A DNA stretch of 64,000 bases, taken from assembly GCA_945903265.1 (NCBI GenBank), contig CAMDNQ010000001.1:62001-126000 (forward strand), given 5' to 3'. The position numbers and the translations under genes were made by a program. The first letter of the stretch is position 1. Each line of letters opens with the position of its first letter. The stretch is from Candidatus Sulfopaludibacter sp. SbA3 (lineage in GTDB: Bacteria > Acidobacteriota > Vicinamibacteria > Vicinamibacterales > UBA2999). Positions 35,075 through 47,055 of this stretch are shown in pieces. Under the pieces are notes generated by a model that searched no databases, was not told the origin of the DNA, and saw nothing but the letters and a program-made list of their open reading frames with translations.

Positions 35075-36136
35075 ATGTTTCGTAAAACCAAGAGCCTCGT
35101 GGGCCTCGACATCGGGTCGAGCGCGGTCAAGGCAGTGGAGCTCAGGCCGGCAGGCAAAGGATACCGGGTAGCGGCGTTTGCCGTCGAACCGGTCCCGCCG
35201 GACTCCATTGTCGACGGCGCCATCATCGATGCCGGCGCGGTTGCCGATGCCATTCGCCGCATCTTCGAGGGCAATAAGGCATTCAAGGCGAAGGACGTGT
35301 GCGCGTCGCTCTCCGGGAACGCGGTGATCGTGAAGAAAATCACGCTGCCCGTGATGACCGCCTCCGAACTGGACGACTCCATTTCGTGGGAGGCGGAGCA
35401 GTACATCCCGTTCGACATCCAGGACGTGAACCTCGACTATCAGATCCTGGACCCCGGCACGGGTCCGGACTCGCGCGGCAGCATGGACGTCCTGCTGGTC
35501 GCGGCCAAGAAGGAAAAAATCGGCGATTACACCGGCGTCATCGCGCAGGCCGGCCTGACGCCGGTCGTCGTGGATGTCGACGCGTTCGCCCTCCAGAATG
35601 CCTACGAGGCGAACTACGGCCTGGACGCCCGCGAGGTTGTCGTCCTCATGAACGCCGGCGCCAGCGCCATCAACATCAATATCCTGCAGGGCGACCAGTC
35701 GGTGTTCACCCGCGATATCTCGCTCGGGGGGAACGCCTATACCGAAGCGGTCCAGCGCGAGCTCGGGTTGCCATTCGAGGCCGCAGAGCAGCTCAAAAAG
35801 GGCATTCCGGTCGACGGCGCGACGTACGAAGAGGCGTAGCCGGTGCTGCACGCCGTGACCGACAACGTGCTGCTCGAAATGCAGAAGACGTTCGACTTCT
35901 TCAAGGCGAGCGCCTCGTCTGAACAGATCGACCGCATCATGCTGAGCGGCGGCGCATCGCGCGTCGACGGGTTCCGCGAAATGCTGCAGGAGCGCTTCGG
36001 TATTCCCGTTGAGGATTTCGATCCGTTCCGCACCATTGGCTGGGACGCCAAGAAGCTCACCGGCGACGCGGCGGATGTGGCGCCCACGGCGGCGGTGGCC
36101 GTCGGTCTCGCGCTGCGGCGGGTAGGCGACCGATGA
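35075..36136 (+). pseudogene. pilM: PilM type IV pilus assembly ATPase-like protein, interrupted by in-frame TAG
   Basis: Actin-fold cytoplasmic protein that binds PilN in the type IV pilus alignment complex. The N-terminal part shows LVGLDIGSSAVKAVEL (phosphate-1 loop) and SLSGNAVIVKKITLP; the C-terminal part shows IMLSGGASRVDGFREML (adenosine motif). Together, 353 codons, a normal PilM length. At codon 255 (35837-35839) TAG replaces a sense codon between TYEEA and PVLHAVTDN, and the same frame continues to TGA 36136. GTG at 35843 could restart translation at once. Possible explanations are recent inactivation, a split protein, readthrough, or a base error (CAG to TAG). Confidence 0.85.
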
Positions 36137-36772
36137 TTCGCATCAATCTGCTCGGGGTCGAGCGTACGCGCACCCGAAAGGCCATCGCCTTTGACATCGG
36201 GCAGCAGCTCACCCTCGCCGCCAGTCTCATTCTCCTGAGCGCCGCGCTCGGCATTGGCTGGTGGTACTGGACGCTGTCACAGAGCTCCGCACAGCTCGAT
36301 ACCGACCTGGCAGGCGCGCGGCAGGAAGCCACCCGTCTGCGGACGCTGCTCACGGAAGTCGGGCAGTTCGAGGCGCAACGGCAGCAGCTGCAGCAGCGCG
36401 TCACGCTGATCTCGGAACTCCGCAGCGGTCAGAAGCATCCCGGTGCAGCTCCTCGATCACATCAGCCGCAGCCTCCCCGACATGCTGTGGCTGACCACGA
36501 TGGCGCAGCAAGCCGACGAGGTGACGATTGAGGGACAGAGCACGACCCTGATCGCGCTGTCAGACTTCGTCGGCAACCTGAGCACGGGCACCCTGCTGGA
36601 GCGGCCCATTGAAATCGTCGACAGCCAGGTGCAGCCGGCCACGGGGCCCGGGGCCCAGCCCGGTCTCGAGTTGATTCAGTTCACCGTGCGCGCCCGCATC
36701 AACCGGCCGGACCCGCCGGCCGCGGCGCCTGGAGGACGGGGAGCCCCTGCCGGACGTGGAGGCCGCCCATGA
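36133..36772 (+). pseudogene. pilN: PilN type IV pilus assembly protein, +1 frameshift
   Basis: Bitopic inner-membrane partner of PilM and PilO. The N-terminus has the PilM-binding INLLGVERTR motif and a transmembrane helix (LAASLILLSAALGIGWWYW), then a coiled coil. After SELRSGQKHP the frame changes: CAT CCC GGT at 36436-36444 carries one base too many. Removing one C gives CAT CCG GTG and continues as QLLDHISRSLPDMLWLTTM, the expected PilN sequence, to TGA 36772. In the original frame translation ends at 36531. A GTG at 36443 begins the downstream part. Overlaps pilM and pilO by four bases each. Confidence 0.83.
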
Positions 36773-37413
36773 ATGTGAGCCTCAATCGGTTGCCCTGGTA
36801 TGGACAGATCGGGGCTTTCGTCGGGTTGGCGCTGCTTGGCGTCGGCGCGTTCTGGTACGCGTACGTGCGTCCGGCCGAGGCGAGTCTCGCCGCGCGGCGG
36901 GCCGAACTGGATACATTGCGCGCCGAGATCACGCGCGGCCTCGCGACCGCGCAACAGCTTCCGGAATTCCGGAGCCAGGTCGCCGGCCTGGAGTCTCAGC
37001 TCGATCGTCTTCGCGTCGTGCTGCCGGAGGAGCGCGACGTGTCGGATCTGCTGCGCCGCGTGCAGGCGATGGCGACGCAGTCCAATCTCACGATCCGCGG
37101 CTTTGCCCCGCAGGCCATTACTACGCGCCAGATGCACGCGGAGTGGCCCATCGGACTGCAGCTCGAGGGCTCGTACCACGACCTCGGGACGTTCCTCGAG
37201 CGCGTCAGCAAGTTTCCCCGAATCATCAATGTCACCGGCCTCACGATTCGCGCGGTTCCCGCAACGGCGCCGGGCGGGTCAGCGACGATCACCGCTGATT
37301 GCATTGCCACGACGTTCGTCCTGATCGAGCAGCCGGCCGGCGCGGCCGGGGGACGCGGTGCGGCCGCGGGCCGTGGCGCCGCAGCAGGGCCTGGCGCCGG
37401 AGGCCGTGGATGA
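36769..37413 (+). CDS. pilO: PilO type IV pilus alignment protein
   Basis: Bitopic inner-membrane protein that pairs with PilN. 214 residues: short cytoplasmic N-terminus, one helix (GAFVGLALLGVGAFWYAYV), a coiled coil (ASLAARRAELDTLRAEI) and the periplasmic ferredoxin-like domain with the IGLQLEGSYHDLGTFLERVS motif of PilO. The tail is a Gly/Ala/Arg low-complexity run. Intact, unlike pilM and pilN. Overlaps pilP by four bases (ATGA). Confidence 0.9.
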   Translation: MNVSLNRLPWYGQIGAFVGLALLGVGAFWYAYVRPAEASLAARRAELDTLRAEITRGLATAQQLPEFRSQVAGLESQLDRLRVVLPEERDVSDLLRRVQAMATQSNLTIRGFAPQAITTRQMHAEWPIGLQLEGSYHDLGTFLERVSKFPRIINVTGLTIRAVPATAPGGSATITADCIATTFVLIEQPAGAAGGRGAAAGRGAAAGPGAGGRG

Positions 37414-37937
37414 CGCCGTGGATGACGACGCATGTTCGCGTCCTCGGCGTGGCGGTCGTGCTTCTGAGCGTCCTTCTCATCGTCGCCGGCGCGGCGGCGC
37501 AGGGCCCTGGCGGCGCAGCTCCGGGCGGAGCGAAGCCCCCTGCGGCCTCGCCAACCCCCACGCCCGAGCAGCTGATCGAACCGGCTGGATTCACCTACAT
37601 GCCCGAAGGCCGGCGAGACCCGTTCGTGAGCCTGGTCGGGCGGGGCGGGACGGCCGCCGGCGGCGGTGTCGGTCCGCGCCCGGTGGGACTCGCGGGACTC
37701 GCCGTCGGCGAGGTGACGCTTCGCGGCACGATGCGCGGGCGCGAAGGATTTGTCGGCGTGCTGCAGGGCGCCGACCAGAAGACCTACATCGTGCGCGCTG
37801 GCGACCGGCTGTTCGACGGCACGATCCGCGCGATCTCGCAGAACGACATGGTCATCGTGCAGCAGGTGAACGATCCGCTCTCGCTGGAAAAACAGCGCGA
37901 AGTGCGGAAAATGCTCCGACAAGTCGAGGCGAATTAA
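37410..37937 (+). CDS. pilP: PilP type IV pilus assembly protein
   Basis: Periplasmic link between PilN/PilO and the PilQ secretin. From ATG 37410, 175 residues: an N-terminal hydrophobic signal (VLGVAVVLLSVLLIVAGAAA), a Pro/Gly-rich linker, then the PilP core with YMPEGRRDPFVSLVG and a beta-sandwich (GVLQGADQKTYIVRAGDRLF, IRAISQNDMVIVQQ). The lipobox cysteine seen in some PilP proteins is absent. Overlaps pilO; pilQ starts 2 bases after the stop. Confidence 0.88.
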   Translation: MTPWMTTHVRVLGVAVVLLSVLLIVAGAAAQGPGGAAPGGAKPPAASPTPTPEQLIEPAGFTYMPEGRRDPFVSLVGRGGTAAGGGVGPRPVGLAGLAVGEVTLRGTMRGREGFVGVLQGADQKTYIVRAGDRLFDGTIRAISQNDMVIVQQVNDPLSLEKQREVRKMLRQVEAN

Positions 37938-37939
37938 AC

Positions 37940-40174
37940 ATGTATCGACGACGACATGCGGTGGTGGTGTTGTGCGCGCTGCTGGCGATCGGGGCCGCGG
38001 CGTCGCTGACCGCGAGCGGCGCGGGAGCTGACCTGGCGACGCTGAAACGGATTGCCTCCCGGGTCGACAGCCGGGCGGGGGTCATCGCGATCGAGGCGTC
38101 GGCGCCCGTCGCCTACGTCGCGGCGCAGCCGGACCCGCGGACGTTCGTCATCGAGCTCCGTGACGTGGAGTCACAGGGGTTCGCCGACGGCTTCACGCCG
38201 GATTCGCGGCATCCGTTCTCGGCCATCTCAGTGGAGCGCGTGCGCGCCGCCGACGGCGCAACGGTGGCGCGCGTGCAGATGACGCTGGCGCACGCGGTAC
38301 GTCCGCGCGTCCGCAGCGTCCGCAACATCATCTACGTCGAGGCCGACCGCCTCGATCAGGCCGTCCGGACGGTCGCGACCAGCAACACCGCGACCAGCAA
38401 CACCAGGGGGCCCGCAAGCGCCATCCTGCATGTGAATGCCGCGAGCCGCGGGACGGCGACGGCGGTCACGCTCTATGGCAGCGGCCGCCTCAGCGCGTCG
38501 CGCGTGGACGCCCCGGCGGAAGGGGCGCCGCGCCTCGTCATCGATCTGGTGAACGCCACGAGTGCCATCGCGAAGACGACGACGGTCGGGCAGGGGCCGG
38601 TCGACAGGGTGCACGTCGCGCTCGATCCGAACTCGCCGCTTGTGACGCGCGTCGTGATGGACCTGAGCCGCCGGGCGCCCTACCGCGTGGAACCGTCCGC
38701 GGATGGCACCGAGCTGACGGTGATTTTCGACGACGCGGGTTCATCACAGGTTCAGGCGGTTCAGGCGGTTCAAGCCGTGCAGCAACCGGTTGCGGTTCAG
38801 CAGGTTCGCGCTGCCGCCCCGCAGGTTCCTGCGATCCAGCTCCTCCAGGCGCAGGCCGCGCCCGCGCCGGCTCCGGTGCCTCCGACCGCGCAGGCGCCGA
38901 CCCTTCCGGGCACAGTGCCGCAGCGATTTACGGGCTTTCCGATCAGTCTGGACTTTCAGGGGGCGGATCTACGCGCCGTGCTGCGCACGTTCTCGGAAAT
39001 CAGCGGCCTGAACGTGGTCATCGATCAGACGATTCAGGGGACGGTTGACGTCGCGCTGCGCGACGTGCCGTGGGATCAGGCGCTCGACATCATCCTGCAG
39101 GCCAACCAGCTTGGGTACTCCGTCGAAGGCACCGTCGTGCGGATATCGCCACTGCGGGTCCTCGCGGCGGAGCAGGCCGAGCGTCAGTAGCTGGCCGAGG
39201 CGCAGGCGCTGGCCGGCGATCTCGAGACGCTGACGCGCACCTTGAGCTATGCCCGTGCCGAACAGGTACAGCCGCTCATTACGACGACCGTACTGTCGCA
39301 GCGGGGCTCGATCACCACCGACCCGCGCACCAACACCCTGATCATTCGTGACCTGCCCGAGCGGCTGGCCACGATCGGCGGCCTGATCGCGACGCTCGAT
39401 CGGCCGGAGCCGCAGGTCGAGATCGAGGCCCGCATCGTACAGACGAACCGCGATTACGCGCGGGAGCTGGGCGTGCAGTGGGGGTTCAACGGCCGCGCGA
39501 CGACGCAGACGGGCAACACCCTGCCAGTGGCGTTTCCGAACCAGGCAGAAATCGGCGGACGCGTCGGCGGCACGCAGGGACCGGACGGAGCCGCCACGAC
39601 CGTCAATCTTCCTGCGACCATCCAGGCGCCTACATCGGCCATCGGACTTGCGCTCGGATCCATCAATGGCGCCCTGAACCTGGATGTCGCCTTGTCCGCG
39701 CTCGAATCAACCGGCAACGGGCGAATCCTCTCGACCCCGCGCGTCACCACGCAGAACAACATCGAGGCGCAAATCCAGCAGGGCATCCAGATTCCGATCC
39801 AGACGATCGCGAACAACACCGTGACGGTGACCTTTCGCGACGCGACGCTCCGGCTGAGCGTCGTGCCGCAGATCACGGCCGCGGGGACGGTGATCATGCG
39901 GATCGTCGTCGCGAACGAGGTTCCGGACTTCACCCGGCAGGTCAACGGCATTCCGCCCATCAACACCCAGAACGCGACGACCCAGGTTCTGGTGAGCGAT
40001 GGGGAGACGACCGTCATCGGCGGCATCCACGTGAACACGGAACAGGTGCAACAGGCGCGGACTCCGGGCTTCTACCGGCTGCCGCTCCTGGGGTGGCTGT
40101 TCCAGAGAAACACCGTGCTCGATGAAAGCCGCGAGCTGCTGATCTTCATCACGCCGCGCATCATCCGGCTGTAG
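37940..40174 (+). pseudogene. pilQ: PilQ type IV pilus secretin, interrupted by in-frame TAG
   Basis: Outer-membrane pore for the pilus; 744 residues across both parts. Order: signal peptide, two AMIN peptidoglycan-binding domains (about 35-130 and 155-270), a Gln/Ala-rich linker encoded by CAGGCGGTT tandem repeats, N0 domain (PISLDFQGADLRAVLRTFSE), then TAG at codon 417 (39188-39190), followed in the same frame by N1 (SITTDPRTNTLIIRDLPE) and the secretin core (NPLD-free VLVSDGETTVIGGI; ELLIFITPRIIRL). The TAG lies between AERQ and LAEAQALAGD, at the N0-N1 junction. CAG to TAG or AAG to TAG would explain it. Confidence 0.86.
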
Positions 40175-45626: not shown

Positions 45627-47055
45627 GAAATCCAGGCCACGTCGTGGCGGGGCGGTAGACCAGCAACACGATCAGAATCGCGGCGGCGCCGACGATGTAG
45701 AGCGCCGGCAGAACGGGGTAGCCGAAGGCCCGGTACGGCCGCGGCGCATCGGGACGCGTCGCGCGCAGGCGGAACACGCCGGCAATCGTCAGGATGTAGA
45801 AAAGCAGCGCGGCCGACACCACGTAGTCGAGCAGATTTCCGTAGAGGTTGCCGTACTGACCTGTCGCAGGGTCATAGGTTCGCGGCAGCACCAGCACCGC
45901 CGCCCAGATTCCCTGCAGGCCTAAGCCCCACGACGGCACCTGGGCCGCGTTGAGCTTTCCGGCCTTTGCGAAGAAAAGCCCATCCCGCGCCATCGCGTAG
46001 TACGCCCTTGCGCCCGCCAGGATCAGTCCGTTATTGCACCCGAAGGTGGAGATCATGATGGCGATGGCCATCAGCGATACCGCCGCGCCGGGCACGATGG
46101 CGGCGAGCATCGACGTCGCCACCCGGTCCGCGGGCGCCTGCTGGATCGCCTCGAGCGGCAGAACAGCCAGGTAGGCCACGTTCGCGAGCATGTAGAGCGT
46201 GATGACGATGATCGTGCCGAAGGCGAGCGAGAGCGGGATGTTCCGCTGCGGGTCCTTGACTTCGCCGGCGGTGAACGTGATGTTGTTCCACGCGTCCGCG
46301 GAGAAGAGGGATCCCGTCTGCGCGACGCAGAGCGCGACGAAGATGCCGAAGGCAGTCGCCGCCGAGACGCCGTCCGCGATCGGTTCGAAGTTGCGCGGCT
46401 CCCAGAAGTTGCCAAAGTTCGCCAAGGCGGCGGGGGAATTGAGGCCGACGGCAATGCCGATAAGAATCAGAAGCAGCAGCACGCCGGTCTTCGTGGTCGT
46501 GAAGACGTTCTGAATCAGCTTTCCGTATTCAAGGCCGCGGGTGTTCGTCCACGTGAGCAGGGCAATGAGGCTGATGCCCACCAGCTGCGCAGTGGAAAGA
46601 GAGATCGCGTATCCGGCGGACAGGTGTATTGGCGCGACGAGGTACTGATCTTCGGCGATACCCGGCACGAGGATGCCGGCGAATCGGGCGAAGGCGACGC
46701 CCACCGCCGCAATGGTGCCCGTCTGGATCACCATGAACAGCGTCCAGCCGTAGAGAAAGCCCCACATCGGCGAGTACGCCTCACGCAGATAGACGTACTG
46801 CCCGCCGGCCCTCGGCATCATGGCCGCGAGCTCGCCGTAGGCAAGGGCAGCCGTAATCGTGAGGACGCCGGTGACGAGCCAGGCGACGAGCAGCCACCCC
46901 GGGCTCCCCAGCTGCCGCGCCATGCCTGCCGAGACGATGTAGATGCCAGAGCCGATCATCGAGCCCGCAACGACCATCGTCGAGTCGTACAGGCCGAGGC
47001 CGCGCTTGAACTCGGTGTCGAGCGTCGCCGGGGCGGATGCGCGCGGTGAATTCAT
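45565..47055 (-). CDS. APC-superfamily amino acid permease (second)
   Basis: A 496-residue transporter of about 12 helices. Helix 1 has LYDSTMVVAGSMIGSGIYIV and helix 6 FSADAWNNITFTAGEVKDPQ, a pattern close to LAT-type exchangers and different from the neighbouring permease. ATG 47055 or ATG 47064 start it; TAGGAT on the minus strand lies upstream as a possible -10. Substrate unknown. Convergent and overlapping with the other APC gene. Confidence 0.88.
   Translation of the reverse strand: MNSPRASAPATLDTEFKRGLGLYDSTMVVAGSMIGSGIYIVSAGMARQLGSPGWLLVAWLVTGVLTITAALAYGELAAMMPRAGGQYVYLREAYSPMWGFLYGWTLFMVIQTGTIAAVGVAFARFAGILVPGIAEDQYLVAPIHLSAGYAISLSTAQLVGISLIALLTWTNTRGLEYGKLIQNVFTTTKTGVLLLLILIGIAVGLNSPAALANFGNFWEPRNFEPIADGVSAATAFGIFVALCVAQTGSLFSADAWNNITFTAGEVKDPQRNIPLSLAFGTIIVITLYMLANVAYLAVLPLEAIQQAPADRVATSMLAAIVPGAAVSLMAIAIMISTFGCNNGLILAGARAYYAMARDGLFFAKAGKLNAAQVPSWGLGLQGIWAAVLVLPRTYDPATGQYGNLYGNLLDYVVSAALLFYILTIAGVFRLRATRPDAPRPYRAFGYPVLPALYIVGAAAILIVLLVYRPATTWPGFLIVLLGLPVFVWLRSRLQSR

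Follow-up and report, generated by a model that had tools for sequence, protein, structure and literature searches.

Probable recent decay of the type IVa pilus in an uncultured acidobacterium with broken pilM, pilN and pilQ genes and a deleted motor block

We analyzed a stretch of DNA of 64,000 bases (hereafter the window; bases 62001-126000 of contig C1) from the genome G000, which comprises 3.52 Mb in 45 contigs and is estimated to be 98.9% complete. Three genes for a type IVa pilus in this window, pilM, pilN and pilQ, are each broken by a single lesion, and the comparison with relatives revealed that a second locus of the same machine, on contig C10, has been damaged by the deletion of a block of motor genes. 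We consider it very probable that the three lesions are real and that they reflect recent decay of a pilus that has lost its motor block.

Results

Lesions in pilM, pilN and pilQ

The positions of the genes and lesions are listed in Table 1. The product of pilM matched PF11104 (255.6 bits, positions 1-339, with one TAG inside), and it is thus a PilM-type actin-like protein. The tblastn orthologues of pilN, pilO, pilP and pilQ lie downstream of pilM in the same order as in the relatives. All relatives compared in this study belong to genera other than that of G000, and none shares its genus. The closest named relatives of PilQ are metagenome genomes of Acidobacteriota, including one of Vicinamibacterales.

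Table 1. Genes and lesions of the pilMNOPQ locus, numbered from the first base of the window
Feature	Positions	Strand	Remark
pilM, broken	35075..36136	+	TAG in frame at 35837 after 254 codons; next 98 codons still conserved
Nonsense lesion in pilM	35837..35839	+	Gln or Arg codon in most relatives
pilN, broken	36133..36772	+	+1 frameshift after about 100 codons
Extra single A in pilN	36433..36434	+	Relative to all relatives; either of two As
pilO, open, conserved	36769..37413	+
pilP, open, conserved	37410..37937	+
pilQ (secretin), broken	37940..40174	+	TAG in frame at 39188 after 416 codons; following 327 codons conserved
Nonsense lesion in pilQ	39188..39190	+	Lys codon in most relatives

The frame of pilM is conserved on both sides of the TAG, with 64-86% identity to the relatives over the gene. 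At the column of the TAG, a sense codon was found in 20 of 20 relatives; it was mostly Gln or Arg, and occasionally Lys, Leu, Ile or Pro. When 396 genomes of the phylum were searched, G000 was the only genome with an internal stop in pilM among about 150 best matches listed. Direct alignment of pilN showed a single open frame in all 20 relatives, and the extra A of G000 lies inside the sequence CAGAAG at 36430-36435. That is, the first frame could be aligned to residue 100-103, where 'GQ' is followed by 'SIPVQLLDH' in the next frame. The site of the pilQ stop is occupied by a sense codon, mostly Lys, in 18 of the 18 relatives alignable there. Split pilM, pilN or pilQ genes were not found among the relatives examined, and relative to these intact orthologues the three genes of G000 have the disrupted frames of pseudogenes.

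An earlier note, made from the letters of the window, had reported the two TAG codons at the positions given in Table 1 and had proposed a comparison with close relatives. This comparison bore out both stops, since every alignable relative has an intact frame at all three sites. The note had also placed an extra base in pilN near 36439; the extra base is real in the alignment, but it lies at 36433, 5-6 bases away. The conserved codons downstream of each lesion agree with its remark that recognizable protein is still encoded there.

Clustering of the lesions

We compared contig C1 with the ORFs of three relatives (about 400 kb), which covered 142 kb of it in sense frames. Besides this screen, which extended over about half of the contig, selected gene families were examined. 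In the 142 kb, pilM and pilQ were the only gene bodies having an in-frame stop flanked by well-conserved sequence. Of the 69 gene calls in the window, 62 could be compared with the ORFs of relatives, and no further broken gene was found among them, in line with the earlier note, which had seen no other among about 60 apart from an odd start codon of gpsA. The frameshift screen of the same 142 kb gave zero cases, but it also missed pilN; it is therefore not exhaustive, and frameshifts elsewhere are less well excluded than stops. By our own arithmetic, if three lesions were scattered at random over 142 kb, the chance of finding all of them inside 3.4 kb would be about 0.002.

The gene families gave a similar picture. 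None of the 53 ABC-ATPase matches elsewhere in G000 contained an internal stop, and the same was true of the ATPase and GspF/Tad-type matches. Generally poor assembly quality is thus unsupported by either the C1 screen or the gene families. A candidate stop at window position 46940 was checked in detail and proved to lie before the start of a folD-like gene, opposite a permease gene that runs divergently; other candidates of the screen (e.g. 25682 and 34739) were judged from position and composition to be antisense or upstream-of-start frames. An ab initio decoder of coding potential was dropped, because it could not distinguish the lesions from same-frame gene junctions.

Deletion of the motor block on contig C10

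In the relatives, the order of genes at the second locus is efflux genes and a Yip1-type gene, then the block porV-pilB-pilT-pilC-pilS-pilR-pilA, then a vitamin-K-reductase-like gene, ABC genes and pilD, where the gene names are presumed from sequence features and knowledge of the families. The full block is found in five relatives (G011, G001, G003, G005 and G006), and the block is also present in others, for example G009, G014, G015, G025, G026, G029 and G031.

On C10 of G000, both flanks of the block are intact on one contig, and about 8 kb between the Yip1-type gene and pilA are missing. The efflux genes are followed by the Yip1-type gene (107191-107898), a remnant of porV, pilA (105974-106507) and the rest of the flank. 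The remnant (106749-106979) corresponds to the first 77 codons of porV, is 71% identical to that of G011 and lies about 240 bp from pilA. The distance from the start of porV to the start of pilA is 8.7 kb in G011 and about 0.5 kb in G000, and no trace of pilB, pilT, pilC, pilS or pilR was seen at this locus. The segment C10:106507-107191 (L260:3507-4191) has the form of a scar of the deletion of about 8 kb, in which the 77 codons of porV abut the region upstream of pilA.

We also looked for these components elsewhere in G000. With PF00482, the PilC of type IV pili was absent from the genome, and only GspF (on C21) and Tad members were found; in most relatives, a PilC is found besides GspF and scores above it. 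The remaining PilB-like ATPase (on C8, adjoining a DnaJ-type gene) and PilT-like ATPase (on C30) are 44-46% identical to the motors of G011; for the motors encoded in the block of nearly all other relatives, the identity to those of G011 is about 64-88%. These values show that the two ATPases are paralogues, and we therefore rejected them as type IVa motors. A putative broken PilC on C39 and C44 was rejected as well, for the sequence is that of a Tad-type gene divided over two contigs. The end of C39 and the start of C44 overlap by exactly 149 bp through this gene, and the two contigs should probably be joined.

Thus the block is gone, there is no PilC elsewhere and the ATPases are only distantly related paralogues, which leaves the type IVa pilus of G000 with neither motors nor platform. 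A functional type IVa pilus calls for orthologues of PilB, PilT and PilC and for open pilM, pilN and pilQ; G000 has only paralogues of the former, and broken frames of the latter. No pilus is expected to form without PilB and PilC, so assembly would not be expected in G000 even if pilM, pilN and pilQ were whole.

Pilus genes that remain open

Open frames are kept in G000 by pilO, pilP, pilA, pilD and the minor-pilin genes. The intact frame of pilA, together with a conserved promoter motif of the -24/-12 type upstream of it, counts against the explanation by decay. The motif, GGCAC-N5-TTGC (L260:3600-3620, minus strand; also in L243, L245, L246 and L265), occurs upstream of pilA in all genomes looked at. 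It is retained in both genomes that lack PilR (G000 and G017), where it may be a sigma-54-type promoter left behind.

The motor block in other genera

G017 (97% complete), which represents another genus of the same family, has on C93 a full-length porV, then about 0.4 kb, and then pilA, with pilB to pilR missing (L265:3028-5009). The end point in or near porV differs from that in G000. The sole PF00482 protein of G017 is of the GspF type, and its pilM is open. In pilN of G017, about 72 residues match and the last 25 or so do not, at the end of a contig (L016:2557-2839), which represents either a broken gene or an assembly edge. Judged by PilM, G011, G015 and G002 are closer to G000 and retain the block, so the losses in G000 and G017 are most simply regarded as separate.

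Other arrangements were also seen. At the block site of G010 (L253) and G007 (L258), there are more divergent pilB, pilT and pilC genes (35-67% identity), which gives the impression of a replaced motor set, and no match to pilS or pilR was found there. No PilM orthologue was found in the genome of G014 (91% complete), in which the motor block is present (L264); this may be a gap, or a loss in the reverse order.

Discussion

Our findings can be considered as follows. Judged against the relatives, the deletion on C10 removed both motors (PilB for extension and PilT for retraction), the platform PilC of the inner membrane and the regulators PilS and PilR. The alignment complex and secretin encoded by pilMNOPQ would then no longer serve a pilus, and pilM, pilN and pilQ would have gained null mutations by drift. 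The ongoing loss of pili, one of several options named in the earlier note, is supported by this deletion, which lies at a second locus outside the window. It is the likelier order that the deletion preceded the point lesions, although the loss of function may instead have coincided with them. We infer both the age and the order of these events from comparison with other genera.

Little neutral time would have passed since the loss, as suggested by the small number of missense changes at conserved sites. Of 304 otherwise invariant positions in eight stretches of pilMNOPQ, G000 differs at 3, which is no more than in other species. Under a model of random substitution in which a transition is given four times the frequency of each transversion, nonsense changes would make up about 2.6% of the changes in these genes. 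Two nonsense changes thus fit some tens of substitutions, and with many more, further violations of invariant columns would be expected; three or fewer violations have a probability of 0.07 with 60 substitutions, and of 0.002 with 100. If this model holds, constraint on these genes has been gone for roughly 1% of neutral divergence or less. The earlier note had considered the damage to be either recent or being decoded.

The same arithmetic fits random sequence errors equally well, and by itself it cannot separate decay from error; it is the deletion on C10 that does so. An error of sequencing or assembly, or a chimaeric consensus of strains, might have produced the lesions in cells that make intact proteins. 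G000 is indeed a draft assembly, the overlap of exactly 149 bp between C39 and C44 is typical of short-read graph assemblies, and the conserved positions of the lesioned genes are otherwise almost unviolated. However, the 142 kb compared contain no further in-frame stop lesion, the ABC-ATPase matches are clean, the extra base of pilN lies outside any long homopolymer, and the loss of pilB, pilT, pilC, pilS and pilR strikes the same machine elsewhere. We therefore regard an artefact as quite unlikely, and the view of the earlier note that random sequence error is improbable appears to hold. In a draft of 45 contigs, C1 or C10 may nevertheless have been misassembled locally.

Explanations in which the broken genes still function fare worse. 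The lesions might be switchable by phase variation, or each half might work as a protein of its own, and pili would then be made under certain conditions; a GTG just past the stop of pilM could be taken in favor of this idea, as could a TTG about 50 bases past that of pilQ. But there are no repeat tracts at the three lesion sites, the relatives examined have no split genes, and PilB and PilC are absent. Split proteins, phase variation or a mixed-strain consensus may still apply at a single site, but none of them is needed as an explanation, since no assembly is expected of a pilus that lacks PilB and PilC; we think it very improbable that pili are made in either of these ways. Suppression or reassignment of TAG, by which full-length PilM and PilQ would be made, seems hardly credible. 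Both stops are TAG and the codons past them are conserved, but the frameshift of pilN would survive readthrough and the motors would still be missing. Moreover, G000 has 44 tRNA matches, and no CUA anticodon was present among the anticodons that ARAGORN read in their fetched loci. This makes readthrough unlikely, and TAG is an ordinary terminator that ends 99 of the 288 genes called on C1, pilQ itself included. The readthrough suggested in the earlier note is thus unsupported, as is its alternative that the damage is being decoded.

Returning to decay and the deletion of the motor block, we most likely see a recent gene loss that is ordinary in kind, but its staging is unusually clear and it has been caught early. 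The dismantling of a whole machine can be followed in an uncultured bacterium: the motors and platform were lost as a block, the genes of the base are starting to break, and the pilin and minor-pilin genes are still open. A practical consequence is that a call of 'type IV pili present' made from pilA, pilMNOPQ or paralogues of PilB and PilT would be wrong for G000. The independent loss of the block in two genera that keep pilA and its promoter might be a sign of recurring selection against piliation; we put this forward tentatively and consider it rather doubtful. If it were true, phages that depend on the pilus or a shift to another habitat, for example, would have driven the losses rather than plain drift.

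In a search of the literature, we found nothing specific on loss of type IV pili in Acidobacteria. In other bacteria, pilQ is reported to be pseudogenised in three strains of Legionella pneumophila, and in one strain of Acinetobacter baumannii a phage is reported to interrupt it (PMC11472951). These cases resemble ours in that single lineages have acquired null changes in core genes of the pilus. They differ in that G000 is an uncultured acidobacterium, known from its sequence alone, in which several core genes at two loci are affected.

Compared with type IVa pili in general, the order pilMNOPQ and the pilB-pilT-pilC-pilS-pilR-pilA cluster of the relatives are clear orthologues of the known system. 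G000 departs from this system in having lost the block of motor, platform and regulator genes and in having three of its five alignment-complex genes broken.
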